Positions 39,920-51,993 of a stretch of DNA of 64,000 nucleotides are shown piece by piece. Each line of letters begins with the position of its first letter. Positions within the stretch are counted from its first letter, which is position 1. The position numbers and the translations under genes are program-made. The notes beneath the pieces are model-generated. The model was not told the origin of the DNA, searched no databases, and saw only the letters and a list, made by a program, of their open reading frames with translations. The stretch is from Haloterrigena alkaliphila (lineage in GTDB: Archaea > Halobacteriota > Halobacteria > Halobacteriales > Natrialbaceae), in assembly GCF_017352155.2 (NCBI RefSeq), contig NZ_CP071462.1, positions 310,001 to 374,000 on the forward strand, written 5' to 3'.

Positions 39920-41083
39920 ATGAAGCGGCTCCTCGAGGCCCTGTTCGGGCTGATCGCACTGACTGGCATTCCGTATCTGATCTACCTCGGGGTGTACTAC
40001 CTCCGACGACCGTCGGGGACGCCCGCCGACGCGTGGCCCCGGGAACCGTCGGTGAGCATCGTCCTGCCGACGTACAACGAGTCCGGAATCGTCGAATCGA
40101 AACTCGAGGAACTGGTCGAACTGGACTACCCGATGGAGAAGGTCGAAATCGTCGTCGTCGACTCGAGCGACGACGGAACGGCGGATCTGGTCGAGACCTT
40201 CTTCGCCGGCCGATCGGAACCGAAGCTCACGCTCATCCGCGAGGACGAACGGCGAGGCCTGGCGACCGCGCTGAACGAGGCCTACGCCGCCGCGGCGAAC
40301 GAGGTCGTCGTCAAGACCGACTGCGACTCCCGAATCGCGTCCGACGCCGTCCGGAGGGCCGTCGCGAACCTCGCCGATCCGGCGGTCGCCGCGGTGACCG
40401 GCCGCAACGCCGAGGTCCTCGGCGGGAGCGACGTCGAGCAGAATTACCGCGACATCCAGACGATGATCCAGATCCTCGAGTCCCACATCGACTCGACGCT
40501 GATCTTCCACGGCCCGTTCTCGGCGTTCGAGCGCGACCAGATCGTCCCGATCGACGAGGACTCGATCGCCGACGACACCGAACTCGCGCTGAAGATCCGG
40601 CGCAACGGGGGCCGGGTCGTCTTCGATCCCGAGATCCACTACAAGGAGGCCGCCCACTCCGACTTCGGCAAGCGCCGCGAGCAGAAGGATCGGCGCGCGA
40701 TGGGACTGCTGCGCCTGCTGTGGCGCCAGCGCGACGCGCTCGGCAGCCACGGCGCCTACGGTCGCGTCGTGTTGCCCTTCAACTGGTGGTTCATGGTGGT
40801 CTCGCCGTGGCTCGTCGGCGCCGGCGTCGCGCTCGCGACCGTCGGCTCGCTCGCCCTGCTGGGTCCCGCCGGACTGGTTACCCCAGCCGGCGTCCTCGCC
40901 TTCACGGCGCTTGGCTCGCGCGACGCCCTCGGGCCGCTCCAACCCCTCTACTCGCTGTTCGACGCCCAGATCTCGCTGCTGCGCGCGAGCGTCTCCCTGA
41001 TCCGGGCCCGCGCCGACGGCGACGAGGATACCCACGACGGCACCTGGGCGCCCGACGACGAACTACGGGAGGTGTTACAGTGA
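39920..41083 (+). CDS. GT2 glycosyltransferase, membrane-anchored
   Basis: The 387-residue family 2 glycosyltransferase has an N-terminal membrane helix (FGLIALTGIPYLIYLGVYYL). The GT-A core has VSIVLPTYNESGIVESKLEE, VVDSSDDGTADLVE, a DxD-type KTDCDSR, and a QxxRW-like region with REQKDRRAMGLLRLLWRQRDA. Two helices follow (FNWWFMVVSPWLVGAGVALA, then LALLGPAGLVTPAGVLAFTA). This architecture fits processive or lipid-linked sugar transfer with growth at the membrane. It starts a run of overlapping genes. Confidence 0.9.
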   Translation: MKRLLEALFGLIALTGIPYLIYLGVYYLRRPSGTPADAWPREPSVSIVLPTYNESGIVESKLEELVELDYPMEKVEIVVVDSSDDGTADLVETFFAGRSEPKLTLIREDERRGLATALNEAYAAAANEVVVKTDCDSRIASDAVRRAVANLADPAVAAVTGRNAEVLGGSDVEQNYRDIQTMIQILESHIDSTLIFHGPFSAFERDQIVPIDEDSIADDTELALKIRRNGGRVVFDPEIHYKEAAHSDFGKRREQKDRRAMGLLRLLWRQRDALGSHGAYGRVVLPFNWWFMVVSPWLVGAGVALATVGSLALLGPAGLVTPAGVLAFTALGSRDALGPLQPLYSLFDAQISLLRASVSLIRARADGDEDTHDGTWAPDDELREVLQ

Positions 41084-42345
41084 CCGACGCCAACGTCGCG
41101 ATCCTCCACGATCGGTTCCCCGGCATCGGCGGCGGCGAGGAGTTCGCCATCGAGGCCGCCCGCGTCCTCGAGGCGCCGATCTACACGGCCTACGTCGCCG
41201 ACGGGACCGAGATCCCCGACGACGTCGAGGTGATCCCGTTCCAGCAGGCCAAGTACACCTCGCTGCCGTGGCGTCCGTTCCTCGAGTGGAAGAACGAGGG
41301 GATGAACCCCCTCGAGACGCTCAACGTGGCGCTGGACATGACCGACGCCCACCCCGCGTTGACGGAGTACGACGTGATACTCGAGAGCGCGCCGCTGTCG
41401 AAGTACTACGTCCCGGACGTCGGCCAGCGGATCGTCCACTACCCCCACAGCCCGCCGCGGTGGCTGTACGACCTCTACCGGGACCGCCTCTCGGGCTTCA
41501 CGGCCCCGTTCGTCGAGACCGGGCTCAAGGCCTACGCGAAGGGGTGGCGGGCGCTGGACAAGGAGGCCAACGACTACGTCGACCGGTTCGTCGCGAACAG
41601 CGAACTGGTCCGGGACCGTATCCGACGCTTCTACGACCGCGACGCGACGGTCGTCTACCCGCCGGTCACGGGCGACTGGCGCGACGACGGCGACGACGGC
41701 TACTTCGTCACCTGGTCCCGGCTCGCTCCCGAGAAGCGGATCGACACCATCGCGAAGGCCTTCGCGGGGCTCGACGAGCGGCTCGTGATCGCCGGCGACG
41801 GAGAACAGCGCGAGCAACTCGAGGCCTTCGCGAAAAACTACGACAACATCGAGGTGCGGGGCTACGTCGAGGACATCGAGTCGCTGGTCGCGCGGGCCAC
41901 CGCGGTCGTCTACGCCCCCAAGCAGGAGGACTTCGGCCTCGTCGGCGCCGAGGCCATGATGGCCGGGAAACCCCTGCTCGGCGTGAACGAGGGCTTCACG
42001 GCCTATCAGGTACAGGGCGGTCGAACGGGGCTGCTCTTCGAACCGACCGTCGAGTCGATCCGCGAGACGGTTCGGCGGTTCGATCCCGCCGACTTCGACG
42101 CGAACGAGATCCGCGCGGAGGCCAGACGGTACGAGTACGACCGCTTCGCGGCGGGCCTGCGCGAGGTTATCGAGGATGTGGCGGCACCCGAGACCGCCGC
42201 GCCGGAACCCGTGCCAGTGACGGAGCGGAAACCGGAAGCAGAGCCGGCGTCGCAGTCGACAACGGAATCGGACCGCGCAGACGAGGATCGACGCGCCGAG
42301 CAGCGGCGCGAGGACGAGCGCGCTGAGGGGGTGGCCGATCGGTGA
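41080..42345 (+). CDS. GT4-family glycosyltransferase
   Basis: The 421-residue GT-B protein starts at GTG 41080, overlapping the previous stop by 4 nt. Seen are VAILHDRFPGIGGGEEFAIE, VHYPHSPPRWLYDLYRDRL, TWSRLAPEKRIDTIAKAF (sugar-nucleotide-domain start), VIAGDGEQREQLEAFA, and the EX7E-type YAPKQEDFGLVGAEAMMAGK. The last 60 residues are low-complexity (PVPVTERKPEAEPASQSTTE). It transfers a sugar from a nucleotide donor; specificity is unknown. Confidence 0.9.
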   Translation: MTDANVAILHDRFPGIGGGEEFAIEAARVLEAPIYTAYVADGTEIPDDVEVIPFQQAKYTSLPWRPFLEWKNEGMNPLETLNVALDMTDAHPALTEYDVILESAPLSKYYVPDVGQRIVHYPHSPPRWLYDLYRDRLSGFTAPFVETGLKAYAKGWRALDKEANDYVDRFVANSELVRDRIRRFYDRDATVVYPPVTGDWRDDGDDGYFVTWSRLAPEKRIDTIAKAFAGLDERLVIAGDGEQREQLEAFAKNYDNIEVRGYVEDIESLVARATAVVYAPKQEDFGLVGAEAMMAGKPLLGVNEGFTAYQVQGGRTGLLFEPTVESIRETVRRFDPADFDANEIRAEARRYEYDRFAAGLREVIEDVAAPETAAPEPVPVTERKPEAEPASQSTTESDRADEDRRAEQRREDERAEGVADR

Positions 42346-43442
42346 CGGCGAGCACGACCGCTCGCGGCGAGGGCGGCGACTCGAGGGGGTCCCGGGGCCG
42401 GACGGACCCCGATCACGCACGTCCCCGGGAATCGGAATCCGGTAATCGGTGTCTGCTCTACCAGAACAGCGACGCCCACCCCGCCCACCGGGTGTTCGCC
42501 GACGCCGTCGGCGCCGATCGGCGCCACTTCGAGACCGGGCGACCGCCCGGATCCGGGGGGAACACCGAACGAATCGCCGATCGGCTCCGAACCGCCGGGA
42601 CCCTCCCCGCCTACGACACCGTCATCGCGGAGGGGAGCGCGCCGCTCCAGACCGGGCTCGCGTACAAACTGCGCCACCCGGGGACGACCCTCGTCTACCT
42701 CGCCGCCGACGAGACGTTCTACACCCTGTCCGAGCGGCCGACGCGATTCTTCTGGCGCGGACTGAAGCCGCTCTCGAGTCGACTGCTCGACGGCGTGATT
42801 GCGGTCGGTCGGGACGTTTACCGCTGGGGGCGACCGTACCTCGGCGACGTTCCGGTCGCGTACGTCCGGCCGCCGATCGACGACGGGAAGTACGAACGGC
42901 TCGCGTCGCTCTCGCCGAACTCGCCGCAAGATCCGTTCACGATCCTCTCAGCTGGCGAGGCCAAACCGGCCAACGGCTACGATCGACTGACTCGAGCGGT
43001 CGAGCGATTCGCCGACGCGGTCGAAAGCGACGTTCGACTGGTGATACTCGGCGAGGGTCACGAGAGGGAAGGGTACGCGGATCGATCCCGCGTCCTCACG
43101 CCCGGGTTCGTCGATCTGGATACCTTCGCCGACTGGTTCGAGCGCGCGAGCGTCTACGTCCAGTCGTCGCGCGGCGACGCCTTCCCTGTCGCTGCGCTCG
43201 AGGGGATCCTCTCGGGGACGCCGACGGTGGTCACCGAGGCGACCGGCGTTCGGGAACTCCTCCCCGCTCGGCAGGTCGTCCCGCCGACCGAACGGGGGCT
43301 GCTCGAGGGGCTGCGGGACACCTTCGAGCGGTCGCCGGCGGAACGGGAGGCCACCGCGAACGACCAGCGAGACCTCGTCGCCGATCTGACCGAATCGAAT
43401 CAGGGCAAACGCTTCGGCGCCGCGCTGGAGGCACTCGCATGA
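42342..43442 (+). CDS. GT4-like glycosyltransferase
   Basis: The 366-residue protein starts at GTG 42342 with a 4-nt overlap. The first 30 residues are low-complexity. The GT-B C-terminal half has TILSAGEAKPANGYDRLTRA, RLVILGEGHEREGY, LTPGFVDLDTFADWFERASV and the EX7E-like QSSRGDAFPVAALEGILSGT. The N-terminal acceptor domain is diverged (TVIAEGSAPLQTGLAYKLRH). It forms one translationally coupled unit with the genes on both sides. Confidence 0.86.
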   Translation: MTASTTARGEGGDSRGSRGRTDPDHARPRESESGNRCLLYQNSDAHPAHRVFADAVGADRRHFETGRPPGSGGNTERIADRLRTAGTLPAYDTVIAEGSAPLQTGLAYKLRHPGTTLVYLAADETFYTLSERPTRFFWRGLKPLSSRLLDGVIAVGRDVYRWGRPYLGDVPVAYVRPPIDDGKYERLASLSPNSPQDPFTILSAGEAKPANGYDRLTRAVERFADAVESDVRLVILGEGHEREGYADRSRVLTPGFVDLDTFADWFERASVYVQSSRGDAFPVAALEGILSGTPTVVTEATGVRELLPARQVVPPTERGLLEGLRDTFERSPAEREATANDQRDLVADLTESNQGKRFGAALEALA

Positions 43443-44941
43443 CCGAAACCCAACGACCGAATATCGTCGTCCTCTGTCTCGACACCGTCAGGAAGGACGT
43501 CTACGACCGGTACGCGACCCGACTCCGGGAGCGGGCCGCCGTCCGCTTCGAGGGGATGCGGGCGCTCGGCGGCTGGAGCGTCCCGAGCCACGCCGGGATG
43601 CTGACCGGCTCGGTTCCCTCCGAGACGGGCGTTCACGCCCACCAGCGGCGGTTCGATCCGATCGACCGCGAGGACACGTGGATCGCGCCCCTCGAGCGGC
43701 AGGGGTACGAGTCGGTCTGCGTCACGTCGAACATCTACGCCAGCCCCGTCTTCGGGTTCGACCGGTTCTTCGATCGGACGATCCCCATCTCGCCGAGCCG
43801 TAGGCTGCCCGAGGGGATGGACGTCCAGGAACACATCTCCGATCGGTCGACCGACGGCGTCGAGGCCTACGCCGATTTCGTCCGCGAGGCCCTCGCCCAC
43901 GACTACCCGCTGCGGTCGCTGGCCAACGGCGTCCTCCTCAAACTCGACGACGTGAGCCGGAAGCTCCCGATCGAGAAGCCGACCGACTTCGGCGGTCGGG
44001 CGATCGCGCGGACGCTCGAGCGGGAAGTCACCGAATCCGACGGGCCGGTGGTCGCCTTCGCAAACCTCATGGACGCCCACGGGCCCCACACCGCGTTTCG
44101 CGGGCTGGACGACTCGATCCACGGCGTCTCGAGCGACTTTCACTCGAGTTCGTTCCGCGATTCGGACGTCAACGTCGCTGACGGCCTCGGCGAATATGAG
44201 TCGGACGTCGAGCGCGTCCGTCGACTGTACGCCGCGACGGTCGACTACCTCGATCGGGTCGTCGACGACCTCCTGTCCGCGCTGGCGGCCGGCGACGACC
44301 GCGAGTCGATCCTGCTCGTGACGGCCGACCACGGCGAGAACCTCGGTTACGAGTCCGAGGGCTACCTCATGAACCACATGAGCAGCCTCTCGGAGGGGCT
44401 GTTGCACGTCCCCTTCGACGTCGTCCCCACGAGCGACCGCGCCCTCGAGCTCGCGGTCGACGATATCGACGCCGCCACCGGCGCCGACGAACGGAGCGCG
44501 ACCGCCGACGGTGCTACCGGCCCCGTCGACGTGACCGGACTCAGCTCGCACGCCGACCTCGGCGACCTGGTCCGGTCGATCGCGAGCGACGACCCGTTCG
44601 ATCCGTTCGCCCTCGAGCGCGAGCGCGCCCGCGCAGAGATCGTCGGCTCCGGCTCCGGCATCCCCGAAGGCGGGGACGAATCGTACTGGGACCGCGGCCA
44701 GCGGGTCGTCTACGAGGGCGAGCGGAAGTACTACCGCGACCAGCTCGGCGCCGAGGCGGTGTACGACGTCTCCGGACCGCCGTCGAAAGGGGTCGAACTG
44801 CCCGACGAGACGGTACCCGACGGGCTTTTCGAATCCGCCTTCGGCGACTGGGTCGCCGACGACGAGCGCGACGGACGTGGCCACGCCGAGGAAGTCGACG
44901 CGGCGAGTCGCGCGCGACTGGAGGATCTGGGATACCTGTGA
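43439..44941 (+). CDS. Sulfatase-like protein of the alkaline phosphatase superfamily (1)
   Basis: The 500-residue protein has the metal sites of sulfatases: VVLCLDTVRKDVY at the start, ANLMDAHGPH in the middle and VTADHGENLGYESEGY later. At the nucleophile position the CxPxR signature is replaced by SVPSH (S47, H51 in GGWSVPSHAGMLTG), so formylglycine conversion is doubtful. A long tail (WDRGQRVVYEGERKYYRDQL) ends in ARLEDLGYL. Location in a glycan operon suggests removal or transfer of sulfate or phosphate groups on a sugar chain. No signal peptide is seen. Confidence 0.84.
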   Translation: MTETQRPNIVVLCLDTVRKDVYDRYATRLRERAAVRFEGMRALGGWSVPSHAGMLTGSVPSETGVHAHQRRFDPIDREDTWIAPLERQGYESVCVTSNIYASPVFGFDRFFDRTIPISPSRRLPEGMDVQEHISDRSTDGVEAYADFVREALAHDYPLRSLANGVLLKLDDVSRKLPIEKPTDFGGRAIARTLEREVTESDGPVVAFANLMDAHGPHTAFRGLDDSIHGVSSDFHSSSFRDSDVNVADGLGEYESDVERVRRLYAATVDYLDRVVDDLLSALAAGDDRESILLVTADHGENLGYESEGYLMNHMSSLSEGLLHVPFDVVPTSDRALELAVDDIDAATGADERSATADGATGPVDVTGLSSHADLGDLVRSIASDDPFDPFALERERARAEIVGSGSGIPEGGDESYWDRGQRVVYEGERKYYRDQLGAEAVYDVSGPPSKGVELPDETVPDGLFESAFGDWVADDERDGRGHAEEVDAASRARLEDLGYL

Positions 44942-44981
44942 GCACGAACTCGATTCGAACGATGAACACGAATACGAACCC

Positions 44982-46091
44982 ATGACGGACACCACACTGC
45001 TAGTCACGGTCGATTCCCTCAGGACCGATCACGTCCAGTACATGCCCCATACCCTGGAGTTCCTGGACGACACCCACGACGCCGCCTTCGCCACGAGCAC
45101 CGCGACGCCCGGCAGCTTCCCCGCGATCATCGGCGGGGAGTACCCGACCGGGAGCGGCCTCGAGCCCGAGGCCAGCGTCGCCCACGAGTTCGACGCCCGC
45201 TGCGTCGGAATCACGACGAACCACCTGCTGTCCGCGGAGTACGACTACGCGACCGGCTTCGACTCGTTCACGTCGCCCAAGGGCGGCGGCGAGTCGCTGA
45301 AGGACAAGGGCGCGATCCTGCTCGAGCGCGGCTCGCTCCCCTACAAGGTCGCCAGCTGGGGGTACAACCGCTACCAGCAGCTCCGGAGCTACGTCGAGGA
45401 GACCGAGAAGTCGTTCCGCCCCGCGGACGACGTCGTCGACCAGTTTCTCGGCGAGGTCTCCGGCCGCGACGAGTGGTTCGGCTGGCTGCACTTCATGGAG
45501 CCCCACCATCCCTACGACCCCGACGGCGCGGATATCGACCGAGCGGAGGCACAGCGGATCACCCGCCGCGTGCTCTCGGATCGCGGCTCCGACGAGGACG
45601 AGGCCCTCGTCCGGGACCTCTACCGACGGGAGGTCGCCGAACTCGACGCGGCCCTCGAGTCCCTCTGGGACGCGATCCCCGACGGAACGCGCGTCGTCTT
45701 CTGCGGCGATCACGGCGAACTGCTCGGCGAGGACGGCCTCTGGGGCCACCCCGGCGAGATGCGCCCCGAACTGCTGAACGTCCCGTTCGGAACGCGCAAC
45801 GCCCCCGACGTCGGCGAGGTCGTCTCCCTGATCGACGTCCCGACGATCCTGACCGGCGCCGAACACCGCCAGGGGACGCTCGACCGCGAGATCGCATTCG
45901 CCGCCTACGGGGACCGAAAGGCGGCGATGACCGCCGACCACATCGCGACGGAGGCCGGCACGTATCGACTCGAGGACGGCGAGCGGGTGGAAGACCCCTC
46001 CCTCGAGCGGGAACGCGAGCGGTTCGATCCCGCCTACGTCGTCAAGGAGGACGCGCTGCAGGAAGACCTGGAGGATCTCGGCTACGCATGA
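44982..46091 (+). CDS. Sulfatase-like protein of the alkaline phosphatase superfamily (2)
   Basis: The 369-residue protein begins MTDTTLLVTVDSLRTDHVQY (ATG at 44982). The nucleophile region is TATPGSFPAIIGGEYPTG, with Thr or Ser instead of Cys and no CxPxR. Metal motifs are LHFMEPHHPYDPD and VFCGDHGELLGEDGLWGHPG. It ends LQEDLEDLGYA. It is shorter than classical sulfatases. No export signal is seen, so a cytoplasmic or peripheral role is likely. It starts 40 nt after the previous gene. Confidence 0.82.
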   Translation: MTDTTLLVTVDSLRTDHVQYMPHTLEFLDDTHDAAFATSTATPGSFPAIIGGEYPTGSGLEPEASVAHEFDARCVGITTNHLLSAEYDYATGFDSFTSPKGGGESLKDKGAILLERGSLPYKVASWGYNRYQQLRSYVEETEKSFRPADDVVDQFLGEVSGRDEWFGWLHFMEPHHPYDPDGADIDRAEAQRITRRVLSDRGSDEDEALVRDLYRREVAELDAALESLWDAIPDGTRVVFCGDHGELLGEDGLWGHPGEMRPELLNVPFGTRNAPDVGEVVSLIDVPTILTGAEHRQGTLDREIAFAAYGDRKAAMTADHIATEAGTYRLEDGERVEDPSLERERERFDPAYVVKEDALQEDLEDLGYA

Positions 46092-47002
46092 CGGTCGTCG
46101 TACTGGCGCTCGACGCGCTCGATGCCGGGTTGATCGACCACTTCGATCTCGACGCCTACCGCCTCGCGTCCGGCGGCGAGATCGAGACGTTCGCGAACAC
46201 CCAGGACGTCCCCTATACCCCGGAGGTCTGGGCGACCGTCGCGACCGGACTCGAGCCGGCCGAGCACGGGATCACCGGCGGCGGCACGAGCGAGTGGGAG
46301 AATCCCGCGCTCGACCTCGCGTCGACGGTCACGGGCCACCTCGACGAGTCGACGCGGGGGACGCTCGGGAAGCTCGTGCGGTCGCGAACCGGCACGCGCG
46401 AGCGCATCGGCGAGACGGACCGCGAGTCGATGTTCGACGCCGACGACGCGGTCGTCCACAACTGGCCGGGCGTCCACGACGGCCAGCCGCTCCAGCGAGC
46501 GTGGGACCTGATGAACGCAGTCGCCGAGGGAATGTCCCGCAGCGAGTTCGAGCGCGAACTGTTCGGCCTCTGCGCCCAGCAGTTCGGCTGGGCCCGCGAG
46601 ATGCTCGAGCACCCGGTCTCGATCGCCGGCGTCCACGTCCACACGCTGGACGCGGCGGGCCACGCCTACGCGGATGACGAGGAGGCGTTGCGTCGCGCCT
46701 ACGAACGCGTCGGCGAGTACGTCCAGGAAATCGTCGCCGCCCTCGGCGAGGACGACGAACTCCTCGTCGTCAGTGACCACGGCATGCGAACCGAGTTCTA
46801 CCCGCCCGACGCCGGCGAGAAGCCGGCGAGTCACTCCTGGCGCGCGTACGCGAGTTCCACGGCGGACACGTATCCGAAATCGGTCTACGACGTGCGCCGG
46901 TGGGTGGAGGAGCGCGCGGCGGCGTCCGAAACGGGCGCATCCGACGACGAGGGGATCGACATGCCGACCGAACGCCTGCGCGAACTCGGCTACCTCGACT
47001 GA
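46088..47002 (+). CDS. Type I phosphodiesterase/alkaline-phosphatase-superfamily protein
   Basis: The 304-residue protein begins MTVVVLALDALDAGLIDHF. The probable nucleophile is T44 in VPYTPEVWATVATGLEPAEHG, and the metal motifs are HVHTLDAAGHAYAD and LVVSDHGMRTEF. This pattern matches nucleotide pyrophosphatase/phosphodiesterase-like proteins rather than sulfatases. It ends ERLRELGYLD. Its start overlaps the previous gene by 4 nt, and it is the last gene before the repeat and tRNA. Confidence 0.83.
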   Translation: MTVVVLALDALDAGLIDHFDLDAYRLASGGEIETFANTQDVPYTPEVWATVATGLEPAEHGITGGGTSEWENPALDLASTVTGHLDESTRGTLGKLVRSRTGTRERIGETDRESMFDADDAVVHNWPGVHDGQPLQRAWDLMNAVAEGMSRSEFERELFGLCAQQFGWAREMLEHPVSIAGVHVHTLDAAGHAYADDEEALRRAYERVGEYVQEIVAALGEDDELLVVSDHGMRTEFYPPDAGEKPASHSWRAYASSTADTYPKSVYDVRRWVEERAAASETGASDDEGIDMPTERLRELGYLD

Positions 47003-47087
47003 CCGCGACACCGAACCGCTCGGCCGTCAGTCGGTGTCTCGATCGGTATCAATGACTTCCATGTTGTTCCTGCTGACCGACCGATAC

Positions 47088-47220
47088 GCGGTGGCGCGCG
47101 CTGTCGACCGACCGAGTGCTAACGAGGGCGGTCGACACACTGCGCGAGGGATGAGCGAACGAAGTGAGCGAATCGGCTGGGGAGGGTGTGGCTATTCCCT
47201 GCCGCCACGATAGCAGGCTG
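47088..47220 (+). repeat. Dispersed about 130-bp repeat, copy B
   Basis: From GCGGTGGCGCGCGCTGTC to CCACGATAGCAGGCTG it matches copy A (20683-20817) in the same orientation and copy C (39640-39769) in reverse. It lies 85 nt after the phosphodiesterase-like gene. The rest of 47003-47576 holds no gene that I can support. Confidence 0.75.
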
Positions 47221-47420
47221 TGACTCGTCGCATTTCTCCGGTACCGCTTCGCTGTCTTCTTTCCACGTCCGCGTAGCAGTTGCCTCCCGTTTGCAGACGG
47301 GATGGTCGCATTCGACCCTCTGATGTCCGACTTCAGAGCGTTATGACCTCGAGTCCGGAATTTCCGAACAGTCACACGAGTTCGTGGCCGCCTCGAGAAG
47401 AAGGTTGGCGCGATTTGACG

Positions 47421-47528
47421 ATTTGAACCACGCCGAGACGTGCTCGCTCACGGCGCTTCGCGCCGTTCGCAATCGCGGTCGCGTTTGCGACCGCGCTCTC
47501 GCTGCGCGCGTCTCGACTGGTTCAAACT
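47421..47528. repeat. Long imperfect inverted repeat with internal hairpins
   Basis: ATTTGAACCACGCCGAGAC (47421-47439) and its counterpart at 47510-47528 (GTCTCGACTGGTTCAAACT) pair imperfectly. Inside are GGCGC-TTC-GCGCC near 47452-47464 and the perfect CGCGGTCGC-GTTT-GCGACCGCG at 47474-47495. Both outer arms contain GGTTCAAA, like a tRNA T-loop. It lies 48 nt from the tRNA-Met gene. Confidence 0.6.
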
Positions 47529-47576
47529 ACCACCGTGCTATACTCGCCGCTCGCGGATTTGCTCGCGGCAAAAGTA

Positions 47577-47651
47577 TAGCGGGAGGTAGATTTGAACTAC
47601 CGATCTGCGGGTTATGAGCCCGCCGGAATCTCCTGGCTATCCCATCCCGCT
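47577..47651 (-). tRNA. Initiator tRNA-Met (CAT)
   Basis: The 75-nt minus-strand sequence folds into a full cloverleaf: acceptor AGCGGGA pairing with TCCCGCT, D-arm GGATAGCCAGGAGATTCC, anticodon arm GCGGGCTCATAACCCGC with CAT, and T-arm GGTAGTTCAAATCTACC. The A1:U72 pair and the three G:C pairs at the base of the anticodon loop mark an archaeal initiator rather than an elongator. The gene encodes no CCA. Confidence 0.95.
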
Positions 47652-47870
47652 GTCCTCTACTCTCTGCTGGCCACGATTAAGGCTTGATATTCGCTTCCCG
47701 TCTCAGAGAGACTACCAAACTCTCGGAACGTGATCCGTACGGAGTCGTCAGCGGCGGATTACCGTATACGATCATCACGGATCGCTCCGCTCGACGCAAC
47801 TCGACTCGAGATCGGCATCTACAATCACCATTCGGTACCGAATCGAACTGTTGTCTGTCCGTAGTCGCCC

Positions 47871-47880
47871 CATAATTATG
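47871..47880 (+). promoter_or_regulatory. TATA-like box for the pyruvyltransferase-like gene
   Basis: CATAATTATG is centred 30 nt before the ATG at 47906, which favours that start over the in-frame ATG at 47891. Confidence 0.45.
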
Positions 47881-47905
47881 GCCCGTTCCGGTGGAGACGG
47901 GCGTA

Positions 47906-48916
47906 ATGAGAATCCTGCTTTTGCGGACGTGGACGACGAACATCGGAAACGGATTCATCGACTACGGGGCGAGGGCGATGCTCGAGCGGGCGTTTCCCGA
48001 CGCGGACATCGTCGAGACCGGCGGCTACCCCAACCACGCGGCGGACACCGCGGCGCTGTGGGGCGGCACCCGGAAGCTCGCCCGGATGACGGGGTTCGGG
48101 CAGTCCGACTACGAGTCGCCGACCCACCGGATTCGGCAGAATACGATGAACGTCAGCGAACTGATCGACGCCGATCTGGCCGTCCTGCCGGGCTGCGTGC
48201 TCTCCCGGCCGACGTTCCGGAAGTACTTCGACACCCTCCGGAAACTCCGGGAGCGAGAGATTCCGATCGTTATTATCGGCGGGGGCGGCGAGGAGTACGA
48301 CGAGGCCGAGCGGAAGGACGTCGAGGCCGTCTTCGACGCGCTCGACATCGAGGTCCTGCTCACGCGGGATCGAACCGCCCACGAGGAATACGGCGACCTC
48401 GTGGAGTACCTGTACGACGGGATCGACTGTTCGCTGTTCCTGGGCGACGCTCACCAGCCGCCCGAAGCGAATCAGGAGTTCGACGTCCACACGTTCGACA
48501 AGGGCGAGGAACCGGACGTCGACGGCGCGTCGACGATCATCCGGCCCGACCACGCCCCCTTCGACGAACCGTACCACTTCCCGGTCGGCGAGCGAGCGCG
48601 GGAACTGGTCGGCCTCGAGACGCCGCTGTTCGAGGAGGAGAACGTCTTCGTCTCCGATCTGGTGACCGACTACCTCTTCCTCTACGCCAACGCGGACGTG
48701 GTGCGGTCCGACCGGATCCACGCCTGCCTCCCCGCGCTGACCTACGGCAACCGGGCCCAGTTCTACTTCGACACCCCGCGAGCGAACCTGTTCGACCGGG
48801 TGCCGATCGACGGCGACGTCACGAGCGAACCGGTCCGGTTCGACATGGACGGACTCGAGCGCGAGAAAGAGGCGCAGGTCGAGGCCCTCGAGGAGGGGGT
48901 CGCGACGGTCCTGTGA
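47906..48916 (+). CDS. Polysaccharide pyruvyltransferase-like protein
   Basis: The 336-residue protein begins MRILLLRTWTTNIGNGFIDYGARAML, the typical opening of the PS_pyruv_trans family (CsaB/WcaK). It continues ADLAVLPGCVLSRPTFRKYF, IVIIGGGGEEYDEAE, VLLTRDRTAHEEYG, and a C-terminal DVVRSDRIHACLPALTYGN like the conserved RxH-containing strand. The family adds pyruvate ketals to surface sugars; some members have other roles. It is the first gene of the right half of the glycan region. Confidence 0.82.
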   Translation: MRILLLRTWTTNIGNGFIDYGARAMLERAFPDADIVETGGYPNHAADTAALWGGTRKLARMTGFGQSDYESPTHRIRQNTMNVSELIDADLAVLPGCVLSRPTFRKYFDTLRKLREREIPIVIIGGGGEEYDEAERKDVEAVFDALDIEVLLTRDRTAHEEYGDLVEYLYDGIDCSLFLGDAHQPPEANQEFDVHTFDKGEEPDVDGASTIIRPDHAPFDEPYHFPVGERARELVGLETPLFEEENVFVSDLVTDYLFLYANADVVRSDRIHACLPALTYGNRAQFYFDTPRANLFDRVPIDGDVTSEPVRFDMDGLEREKEAQVEALEEGVATVL

Positions 48917-48998
48917 GCGGAACTGTGACGGGGACTCGACGCCCTCCGGCGGCCGGTTCCATTGCCGGGAGTAGGTTCTTTACCGGAGGTATGGAACG

Positions 48999-50411
48999 AT
49001 GAACGGAACCGCGACCATGGGAGACGAGCCATCAATCGCCCTCGTCGTGCTCGATACGCTTCGAGCCGACTCGTTCGACGAGCACTTCGACTGGTTGCCG
49101 GGCGTGCAGTTCACGAACGCGTGGAGCACGACCCACTGGACGGCCCCGGCCCACGCCTCGCTGTTCACGGGCCGCTACGCGGTCGAGGCCGGCGTGACGA
49201 TCAAGTCCCAGGACTTCGACCGGGAGACGACTCGCCTCCCCGAACTGCTTCAGGACGAGGGGTATCGGACGCGGGCGTTCAGCTGCAACGTCAACATCTC
49301 GGAGCAACTGGGCTGGCACCACGGGTTCGACGAGTTCGACGGCGGCTGGCGGCTCAGCGGCCTCGGCGAGGACGTCTTCGACTGGGACGAGTTCATCGCT
49401 GAACACCGGTCGGACGGCCCCGAACGCTACCTCCGGGCGCTCTGGCGCTGCGTCGACGGCGACTGCGATACGACCCAGTCGCTGAAGCAGGGGGCCCTCA
49501 TGAAGCTCCGCGATATGGGACTCAAGGGGCGCCACCCCGACGACGGCGCGGCGGAGTTCCTCGAGTACGTTCGGGACCGGTCGTGGAACCGAGGTCAGGA
49601 ATTCCTCTTCGCGAACCTCATGGAGGCCCACCTGCCGTACGATCCGCCCGACGAGTACCGGACCTACCCGGACGAGGAGTCGCCCCACTTCGACAGCGTG
49701 AAGGCCACGCTCGGGGAGCCCTCGGCCGATCCGGACCGGATCAGGACCGCGTACGACGACGCCGTGCGGTACCTCTCGGACATCTACCGCGACATCTACG
49801 CGGAACTCGCGGCGGAGTTCGACTACGTCGTGACCCTCGCCGACCACGGCGAGGCGCTCGGGGAGTACGGCGCGTGGCAACACGGCGCCGGGCTCCACCC
49901 GCCCGTGACGGAGATTCCGCTCGTCGTCTCCGCGCCCGGGCCGAACGCCGACCACCGGACCCCGAACGCGGACGGCGCGGACCGGCCGACGCGGGACGCC
50001 CTCGTGAACCTGCTGGACGTCTACGCGACGGTGCTCGACATCGCCGGAATCGAGTCCGACCACCGCCGCGGCGTTTCGTTCCAGCCGCTGCTCTCGAGCG
50101 ACCCGCTCGCGTCGGAGCCCCGGTCGAGTGGGCTGCTGGAGTTCCACGGCATCTCGAAGCGGCGGGCGATCGCGCTCGAGGAGGACGGGTACGACGTCGG
50201 GCCGGTCGACCGCGAACGCCACGGCATCGCGACGGCCGACTGTTACTACTTCGAGGGCCTCTCCGGGACCGAACTGCTCGGCGACTGCGACCCGGCGGTC
50301 CTCGAGGCCGAACTCGAGGGCTTGATCGCCGACCTCGAGACGCGGGAGGGGCTCGCCGAGGCGGATCTGTCCGGTCTGGAATCACAGCTCGAGGATCTGG
50401 GATACCTGTGA
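48999..50411 (+). CDS. Sulfatase-like protein of the alkaline phosphatase superfamily (3)
   Basis: The 470-residue protein has VVLDTLRADSFDEHF at the N-terminus (in-frame ATG at 49017 is an alternative). The nucleophile region HWTAPAHASLFTG has Thr48 and His52 in place of the Cys and Arg of CxPxR. Metal motifs are NLMEAHLPYDPPDEY and TLADHGEALGEYGAWQHGAG. It ends LESQLEDLGYL like its relatives. It is soluble, with no export signal. It is separated from the pyruvyltransferase-like gene by 82 nt. Confidence 0.84.
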   Translation: MNGTATMGDEPSIALVVLDTLRADSFDEHFDWLPGVQFTNAWSTTHWTAPAHASLFTGRYAVEAGVTIKSQDFDRETTRLPELLQDEGYRTRAFSCNVNISEQLGWHHGFDEFDGGWRLSGLGEDVFDWDEFIAEHRSDGPERYLRALWRCVDGDCDTTQSLKQGALMKLRDMGLKGRHPDDGAAEFLEYVRDRSWNRGQEFLFANLMEAHLPYDPPDEYRTYPDEESPHFDSVKATLGEPSADPDRIRTAYDDAVRYLSDIYRDIYAELAAEFDYVVTLADHGEALGEYGAWQHGAGLHPPVTEIPLVVSAPGPNADHRTPNADGADRPTRDALVNLLDVYATVLDIAGIESDHRRGVSFQPLLSSDPLASEPRSSGLLEFHGISKRRAIALEEDGYDVGPVDRERHGIATADCYYFEGLSGTELLGDCDPAVLEAELEGLIADLETREGLAEADLSGLESQLEDLGYL

Positions 50412-50550
50412 CGGTGGGCTCGAGTCGATCGACGGTGGACGGCCGAGCGTGCTCTCCGTCCGCGGCGGCGCTCGAGCGCCGTCAGCGGCCCACGGGAGTG
50501 AGTCGAATACCTCGCCGCACGCAGCCGCCACGCCGGAGGTCCCGCGACCC

Positions 50551-51993
50551 ATGAGCGACGCGACCTCGGTCAGCCTCGGGGGCGAGACCGTCAAGGCGAC
50601 GGCCGCGAAGTTCACGATGGCCGCGATCGGGTTCCTCGGGACGATCGTCTTCGCGCGGGTGCTCGGCCCGTCCGGGTTCGGCGGCTACTACCTCCTCTTC
50701 TCGCTGGTGAAGATCGCCGATCGGGCGGTCAACGGGTGGGGAACAGCGGTGAAAAAGCGGTTCTCGGAGGCCGACGCCCCGACGGGCGAACTGGTCGGCA
50801 GCCAGGCCCTGTTCACGCTGGTCTGGATGGGGCTGGCCGTGGCGGTCGCGCTCGTCACGTCCCGCTGGCTCGTCTCCTACACGGGCCTCCCCGAGGCGCC
50901 GGTGTTGTTCGTCGTCCTGCTGCTCGCGGTCACGCTCTTCGAACCGCTCGATCTGATGGTACAGGCGCGGGGCCGCGTCGGCGCCTCGATGTGGACCGAT
51001 ACGCTCCGGTCCCTGCTCACCTTTCCGCTCCAGTTGGGACTGATCCTGCTCGGCCTCGGCGCCGCCGGCATGGCCTACGGGCTGGCCGGCGCGACCTTCC
51101 TGACGGTGCCGATCCTCGCGTACTACGTTCAGGCGCGGCCGGTCGCTCCGTCGCGAGAGACGGTCGCGAACGTCTGGTCGTACGCCAAGTACAGCATTCC
51201 GAACTCGTTTCTCGGGCAGGCCTACGATCGGTTCGACATCATCCTGCTGGGCTACCTGCTGGCGCCCGCCGCCGCGGGCCACTACGAGGTCGCGTTCAAA
51301 CTCACGGTTCCGGCGACGTTCGTCACGATGGCCGCCTCGAGCGGCCTGATGGCTCGGGTGAGCCGCCGTCACAGCGAGGGGGAGAAACTCGGGGACGACG
51401 TCTCGAACACGCTGGCGTTCACGAGCATCATCGCGATCCCGATGTTCTTCGGCGCCGTGGCGATGCCCGAGCGGCTCGTCGTGACGTTCTTCGGTCCCGA
51501 CTACGCCGAGGCCGCGTTGCTGCTCGTCGGACTCGCGGCGTACCAGATCGCGAAGACGCAGGCCGGCGTGCTCTCGAGCGTGATCTACGGGATCGATCGG
51601 CCCGACGTCAACACGCGAATCTCGGCCGTGACGCTGGGGATCAACGTCGTTCTCGGCGTCGCGCTGACGCTCGTCTACGGCGCGATCGGCGTCGTCGTCG
51701 CGACGGCCATCGCCGAGACGCTCCGCTACTGCCTCTCCGCGATCGTCATCAAACGGGAACTCTCCGAGGTCGTGCTGTTCCCGCGAACGCTCGCCGAACA
51801 GTTCGCGGCCGGGTTCGTCATGCTCGCCGTAATCGTCCCCGCGGAACGCGCCGTCGCCGTCGAGCAGTGGTACCATCTCCTGGCGATCATCGGGCTGGGG
51901 GCGGTCGTCTACGGCGTCACGCTGACCGCGATCAGCCGGAAGCTCCGCGTGACGATCAGAGGCGTCGTCCGCAGTTCGCGGCTCGGGCAGTAG
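50551..51993 (+). CDS. Polysaccharide flippase (Wzx/MATE-like, Polysacc_synt family)
   Basis: The 480-residue integral membrane protein has about 12-14 helices; the first (KFTMAAIGFLGTIVFARVLGPSGFGGYYLL) is the characteristic opening of oligosaccharide flippases. It should move a lipid-linked glycan across the membrane. The ATG at 50551 (MSDATSVSLGGETVK) is preferred over the longer frame from 50449. It is the last gene of the glycan cluster and converges with TYW1. Confidence 0.9.
   Translation: MSDATSVSLGGETVKATAAKFTMAAIGFLGTIVFARVLGPSGFGGYYLLFSLVKIADRAVNGWGTAVKKRFSEADAPTGELVGSQALFTLVWMGLAVAVALVTSRWLVSYTGLPEAPVLFVVLLLAVTLFEPLDLMVQARGRVGASMWTDTLRSLLTFPLQLGLILLGLGAAGMAYGLAGATFLTVPILAYYVQARPVAPSRETVANVWSYAKYSIPNSFLGQAYDRFDIILLGYLLAPAAAGHYEVAFKLTVPATFVTMAASSGLMARVSRRHSEGEKLGDDVSNTLAFTSIIAIPMFFGAVAMPERLVVTFFGPDYAEAALLLVGLAAYQIAKTQAGVLSSVIYGIDRPDVNTRISAVTLGINVVLGVALTLVYGAIGVVVATAIAETLRYCLSAIVIKRELSEVVLFPRTLAEQFAAGFVMLAVIVPAERAVAVEQWYHLLAIIGLGAVVYGVTLTAISRKLRVTIRGVVRSSRLGQ

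Follow-up and report, generated by a model that had tools for sequence, protein, structure and literature searches.

A haloarchaeal glycan locus encoding four tailed alkaline-phosphatase-superfamily proteins, possible counterparts of the N-glycan sulfotransferases Agl30 and Agl31

Proposed relation to haloarchaeal N-glycan sulfation

Two alkaline-phosphatase-like core superfamily proteins of the aglB cluster of Halobacterium salinarum NRC-1, VNG1056C (Agl30) and VNG1057C (Agl31), are reported N-glycan sulfotransferases; their deletions lowered the di-sulfated glycan 250-fold and >50-fold, and their expression in Haloferax volcanii yielded a sulfated N-glycan (PMC11980604). The glycan they sulfate is assembled on dolichol phosphate, Agl31 is soluble and cytosolic while Agl30 is membrane-bound, and no sulfate donor is named (PMC11980604). 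Haloferax Agl7 is implicated in low-salt glycan sulfation. Here, we analyse a locus of Haloterrigena alkaliphila within a 64,000-nucleotide stretch (the window, G000:C1:310001-374000) of a 4.27 Mb genome (G000). The locus encodes four superfamily proteins, A, B, C and D (P0001, P0002, P0003 and P0004), which all end in LxxLGY and lie among glycosyltransferases (GTs) and a flippase. The initial annotation of the window had proposed intracellular transferases or phosphohydrolases acting on a lipid-linked glycan, of which the transferase type is supported by homologues beside aglB and by the analogy with Agl30/Agl31 (PMC11980604); its remark that such proteins have no described role is outdated by the same publication.

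With a confidence slightly better than even, we read the locus as an N-glycan assembly module in which A, B and D would be cytosolic sulfotransferases of the Agl30/Agl31 kind and C a phosphodiesterase- or phosphotransferase-like partner. The likeness comprises the superfamily, membership of an N-glycosylation cluster and the same type of C-terminus, and soluble, cytosolic Agl31 resembles the apparently soluble A–D; the differences are that Agl30 is membrane-bound and that four genes, including one PF01663 protein, are present here. By fold, context and C-terminus, the locus would add new members to this kind, whose role has been described before.

According to the synteny computed here, homologues of most of the set adjoin aglB elsewhere (L059, L060 and L073), whereas aglB lies ~55 kb away in the window genome and roughly 17–20 kb away in G003 and G013. 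The Halobacterium genome G090 carries homologues of five of these genes (GT2, both GT4s, A and B) within ~15 kb, in a stretch ending at aglB, and in G363 homologues of both GT4s, A and B are likewise within ~15 kb of aglB, with the GT2 beyond the stretch read. Two A-type genes and one C-type gene adjoin aglB in Halegenticoccus soli (L073), on a Halarchaeum plasmid aglF and a GT4 are followed by an A-type gene and a flippase lies close by, and a GT4 precedes an A-type gene in Haladaptatus; the pairing of a GT4 with an A-type gene recurs in L059, L150 and L152. Because homologues adjoin aglB in other haloarchaea, the locus is likely a module for the N-glycan or a related dolichol-linked glycan and less likely one for another surface polysaccharide. 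Separately, a glycan cluster of another Halobacterium (L068, G329:C1:1122000-1141000) spans 19 kb and encodes no fewer than five proteins of the sulfatase superfamily.

Nucleophile sites, fold and candidate activities

Three of the proteins (A, B and D) belong to PF00884 and one (C) to PF01663, as the initial annotation had it (three sulfatase-like and one phosphodiesterase-like), and translation bears out the nucleophile-site motifs it had listed (SVPSH, TPGSF, TPEVW and TAPAH). The formylglycine (FGly) motif CxPxR or CxSxR (or SxPxR) was not found at the aligned site in A–D. The position of the FGly Cys is occupied by a Ser in A (Ser47) and by a Thr in B (Thr42) and D (Thr48). In a pairwise alignment, Ser47 of A falls on the FGly/C54S position of choline sulfatase, and the proposed nucleophiles of A and D share a profile column with the Cys of sulfatases that carry CTSAR or CSPSR. 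Both the Asp near the N-terminus and the DHG motif have been retained. A has its fold and nucleophile position in common with FGly (type I) sulfatases of PF00884 such as choline sulfatase, but A–D have Ser/Thr in place of the Cys, His, Phe or Trp in place of the motif Arg, and a C-terminal tail that Cys-type haloarchaeal members lack. No Sulfotransfer_1 or Sulfotransfer_3 domain (PF00685, PF13469) was found in A–D, for which only families of the PF00884/PF01663 type matched.

C retains an NPP-type residue set (D9, T44, D188/H192, D230/H231 and H249, assigned by motif only) and aligns weakly with ENPP4 across the DxxxH and SDHG motifs. It resembles NPPs and other type I phosphodiesterases of PF01663 in its Thr nucleophile and its DxxxH, SDHG and SHS motifs, and differs from NPPs in being short, apparently cytosolic, encoded in a glycan operon and tailed. 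PF01663 proteins normally have a Thr nucleophile, and the motifs of C resemble the NPP metal set; C is therefore not to be termed noncanonical. That label, which the initial annotation had given to all four, also overstates the case for the PF00884 members, since the Ser/Thr type forms the majority of haloarchaeal PF00884 proteins in the sample analysed. The window genome also encodes three Cys-type PF00884 proteins.

The AlphaFold model of A was built on four sequences (mean predicted local distance difference test score, pLDDT, 52.6), its core being usable and its tail not; a single-sequence model of C (pLDDT 39) was unusable. Residues 2–456 of the A model align to sulfatases, EptA/EptC and NPP structures at Z 21–24 (23.7 for sulfatases, ~22 for EptA/EptC/MCR). 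No strongly hydrophobic segment was detected in A–D, with maximum 19-residue hydropathy of 0.9–1.45 versus 2.5 for the flippase, a weak measure given the value of just 1.36 for a relative that is likely anchored by its N-terminus.

If A, B and D are sulfotransferases, they would work at the cytosolic face and decorate the glycan on its dolichol carrier before flippase export. Ser47, Thr42 or Thr48 would attack an activated donor at the metal site, by analogy with the EptA/LtaS phosphotransferases and the FGly sulfatases; a covalent sulfo-enzyme would form at this residue, and sulfate would then pass to a sugar hydroxyl. C, with its NPP-type motifs, would more likely be a phosphodiesterase or phosphotransferase partner. 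Families, motifs, the distribution of the tail and the synteny with aglB clusters were established in this analysis, whereas the activity of A–D, the donor and the order of these steps are what we infer here; the sulfation by Agl30 and Agl31 is taken from the published work (PMC11980604).

The donor was addressed by whole-genome searches of 47 haloarchaea, including the window genome and Hbt. salinarum DSM 3754 (G054). A Sat-type ATP sulfurylase was not found in any of the 47, CysN did not reach cut-off in the 15 genomes tested, and a convincing adenosine-5′-phosphosulfate (APS) kinase was found in G003 only (1/47), in a frame (L105:7893-10865, G003:C1 ~3786000) that also matches a cytidylyltransferase-like domain. 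These genome searches also returned no Sulfotransfer_1 or _3 match (PF03567 and other families were not searched), including in DSM 3754, although its species sulfates its glycans. Absences of this kind are not proof, as a G003 protein near the APS kinase reached the Sulfotransfer_3 cut-off when scanned directly (28.5 vs 27 bits), so that genome searches can miss weak members. Since the searches yielded a single convincing APS kinase and neither an ATP sulfurylase nor a member of the two main P-loop sulfotransferase families, Sulfotransfer_1 and _3, the donor may be other than 3′-phosphoadenosine-5′-phosphosulfate (PAPS), on which those P-loop enzymes depend. A protein resembling CysD (PF01507) is encoded at L101:3763-4734 (G000:C1 ~3351763) and in all 20 further haloarchaeal genomes read; it scores far under the CysD model cut-offs, and its C-terminus, TTERAGRAQDKEDLMERLRDLGYM, hardly varies and agrees with that of Escherichia coli CysD. 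A functional link with the tail of A–D was considered and dropped, as E. coli CysD ends likewise and the ending is thus CysD's own. The window genome further carries a DndC-type DNA phosphorothioation gene (L102:504-5681, G000:C1 ~1889500-1894700) with cysteine-desulfurase-like and AAA-ATPase-like neighbours.

Several observations weigh against assigning the locus to N-glycan sulfation. The fold of A matches sulfatases, phosphoethanolamine transferases and NPPs equally well, and neither a Sat- or CysN-type ATP sulfurylase nor a convincing APS kinase was found in the window genome or DSM 3754. In addition, no sulfation role was detected for VNG1063H, a third such protein of the Hbt. salinarum cluster (PMC11980604).

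The alternative that survives best, although we hold it rather unlikely, is that A–D transfer phospho-substituents (phosphoethanolamine, phosphoglycerol or sugar-phosphate) to a lipid-linked glycan through the Ser/Thr nucleophile, in the manner of EptA and LtaS. LtaS and EptA combine a Ser/Thr nucleophile with a D..DH motif set, as seen here, and A–D resemble EptA/EptC and LtaS in fold and in a predicted group transfer to glycans that are lipid-linked or at the surface; the fold score of A to EptA/EptC/MCR and the failure to find a known activated-sulfate route in the genome fit as well. However, EptA/EptC and LtaS are membrane-anchored, with catalytic domains that act outside the cytoplasm, whereas A–D appear soluble, with no anchor evident by the weak hydropathy measure. 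Moreover, the two haloarchaeal superfamily members with the same tail that have been tested added sulfate (PMC11980604).

Less probable still, and in our view quite unlikely, is that A–D work in the cytosol as hydrolases of sulfate or phosphate esters, trimming or recycling the precursors or by-products of glycan assembly. Fold, family annotation and the NPP-type metal motifs retained in C would agree with hydrolysis, but A–D lack the FGly Cys in a genome that encodes three Cys-type PF00884 proteins, they recur in assembly loci with a flippase and GTs, and Agl30/Agl31 conferred sulfation as a gain of function.

Public annotation labels such proteins sulfatases, i.e. sulfate-removing enzymes. 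Should they prove to be sulfotransferases, the label 'sulfatase-like hydrolase/transferase' would point the wrong way in many haloarchaeal entries, and the apparently missing PAPS pathway would make the sulfate donor of archaeal N-glycans a concrete, testable question. The wider proposition that haloarchaea sulfate glycans by a large class of LxxLGY-marked Ser/Thr sulfatase-fold transferases with a non-PAPS donor, such as a sulfo-metabolite or APS supplied by a diverged relative of CysD, seems unlikely to us as it stands.

Distribution and role of the LxxLGY tail

Translation confirmed the LxxLGY ending of all four proteins. In a first set of loci, with 776 gene calls, the tail was carried by 94, 91 of these 94 belonging to the alkaline-phosphatase superfamily; this sample was enriched for the superfamily, and the association exceeds chance. 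Among open reading frames of the fetched haloarchaeal loci, 113/118 of the Ser/Thr type and 0/9 of the Cys type are tailed. After clustering of haloarchaeal proteins at 45% identity, the proportions were 35/38 and 0/4 (Fisher p = 3e-4), in a non-random sample in which many loci were picked by similarity to window proteins and the four Cys clusters are a small number. In the window genome, the three Cys-type PF00884 proteins (L004, L006 and L007) lack the tail and most Ser/Thr-type proteins carry it, the tailless exceptions being L005 (Ser/Thr-type) and the PF01663 proteins L012 and L015. Beside L005, itself Thr-type, an unrelated protein of 103 residues (L086:6944-7255, G000:C1 ~2242944) ends in VETRLEALGYLE.

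The possibility that the tail is common to all sulfatases, raised in the initial annotation as a check, does not hold for the Cys-type members, and six bacterial Cys-type sulfatases obtained from plasmid matches were also without it. The bacterial relative L177 lacks both the Cys motif and the tail, so the link between tail and Ser/Thr type is shown for haloarchaea only. There, the combination of Ser/Thr and tail offers a simple separator from true FGly sulfatases. A literature search for publications that describe an LGY motif of sulfatases found none.

The tally of tails and gene neighbours proposed in the initial annotation found the tail widespread on Ser/Thr-type proteins, but a GT within 4 kb of only 10/40 of them (a Halobacterium-weighted PF00884 sample with short flanks), and the tail was therefore rejected as a sign of glycan context. 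In a conserved adjacent gene pair of Halobacterium species (L130-L138, L140-L142), one gene encodes a Thr-type sulfatase-like protein with a TTPA motif and the other a further alkaline-phosphatase-superfamily protein; both are LGY-tailed, with no nearby GTs among the searched families.

The reverse cloning primers published for Agl30 and Agl31 give, in our translation, HLEDLGYL and LEELGYT just ahead of the StrepII tag, so both proteins carry the tail and worked when tagged; StrepII-His tags directly behind it did not abolish their sulfation of the glycan (PMC11980604). Docking through a free tail is therefore unlikely. That the tail is a docking tag gathering the enzymes on one common partner, which is compatible with any enzyme activity, is very improbable: the tail is strongly conserved at the extreme C-terminus and, in the A model, forms a separate, low-confidence short helix (residues 488–500) after a low-confidence linker, outside the fold, with regions aligned to known structures stopping near residues 445–462, yet many tailed members lie away from GTs, part of the class is tailless and the tagged enzymes were active. 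The locus-specific dock of the initial annotation is thus not sustained, and the tail is best read as a C-terminal element common to the Ser/Thr-type class in haloarchaea.

The NRC-1 primers had no site at ≤2 mismatches in the fetched loci. In Hbt. salinarum DSM 3754, contig C17 (L039) encodes three tailed sulfatase-like proteins whose start residues are unlike the Agl30/Agl31 primers of NRC-1, which suggests that the glycan-modifying set varies between strains.

Layout of the locus

The left half of the locus is a coupled operon in the order GT2, GT4 (P0005), GT4, A, B and C, with 4-nucleotide overlaps joining GT2-GT4-GT4-A and likewise B-C; the right half, after a tRNA-Met on the opposite strand, comprises a weakly pyruvyltransferase-like gene, D and a flippase (Table 1). 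The GT2, both GT4s and the flippase named in the initial annotation were recovered, while its pyruvyltransferase remained under the Pfam cut-off.

Table 1 Features of the locus (window positions) and the evidence for each
Feature	Position	Strand	Evidence
GT2 glycosyltransferase, first gene of the operon	39920..41083	+	PF00535 E 6e-20; homologue in aglB-linked cluster L059
GT4 glycosyltransferase (P0005)	41080..42345	+	PF00534 E 2e-22; homologue in L059
GT4 glycosyltransferase, 4-nt overlap with A	42342..43442	+	PF13692 E 2e-14
Protein A, Ser-type sulfatase-fold, putative glycan sulfotransferase, 500 aa	43439..44941	+	PF00884 E 6e-16
A nucleophile motif S47-V-P-S-H51	43577..43591	+	Alignments to Cys-type sulfatases
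A tail LEDLGYL	44918..44938	+	Translation
Protein B, Thr-type sulfatase-fold, 369 aa	44982..46091	+	PF00884 E 5e-9; homologues near aglB in L059/L060
B nucleophile motif T42-P-G-S-F46	45105..45119	+	Translation, profile alignment
B tail LEDLGYA	46068..46088	+	Translation
Protein C, type I phosphodiesterase-like, 304 aa	46088..47002	+	PF01663 E 3e-15
C nucleophile motif T44-P-E-V-W48	46217..46231	+	Translation
C tail LRELGYLD	46976..46999	+	Translation
tRNA-Met(CAT), between the two halves	47577..47651	-	
Weakly pyruvyltransferase-like protein	47891..48916	+	PF04230 22.9 bits, under 25.3 cut-off; kept in G003, G013
Protein D, Thr-type sulfatase-fold, 470 aa	48999..50411	+	PF00884 E 2e-23
D nucleophile motif T48-A-P-A-H52	49140..49154	+	Translation, profile alignment
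D tail LEDLGYL	50388..50408	+	Translation
MOP-type polysaccharide flippase	50449..51993	+	PF13440 E 2e-18

The gene order is the same in other members of the genus, G003 among them, and also in G013, which belongs to another genus, and homologues of D are 81–91% identical in the genus (g1) and in G013.

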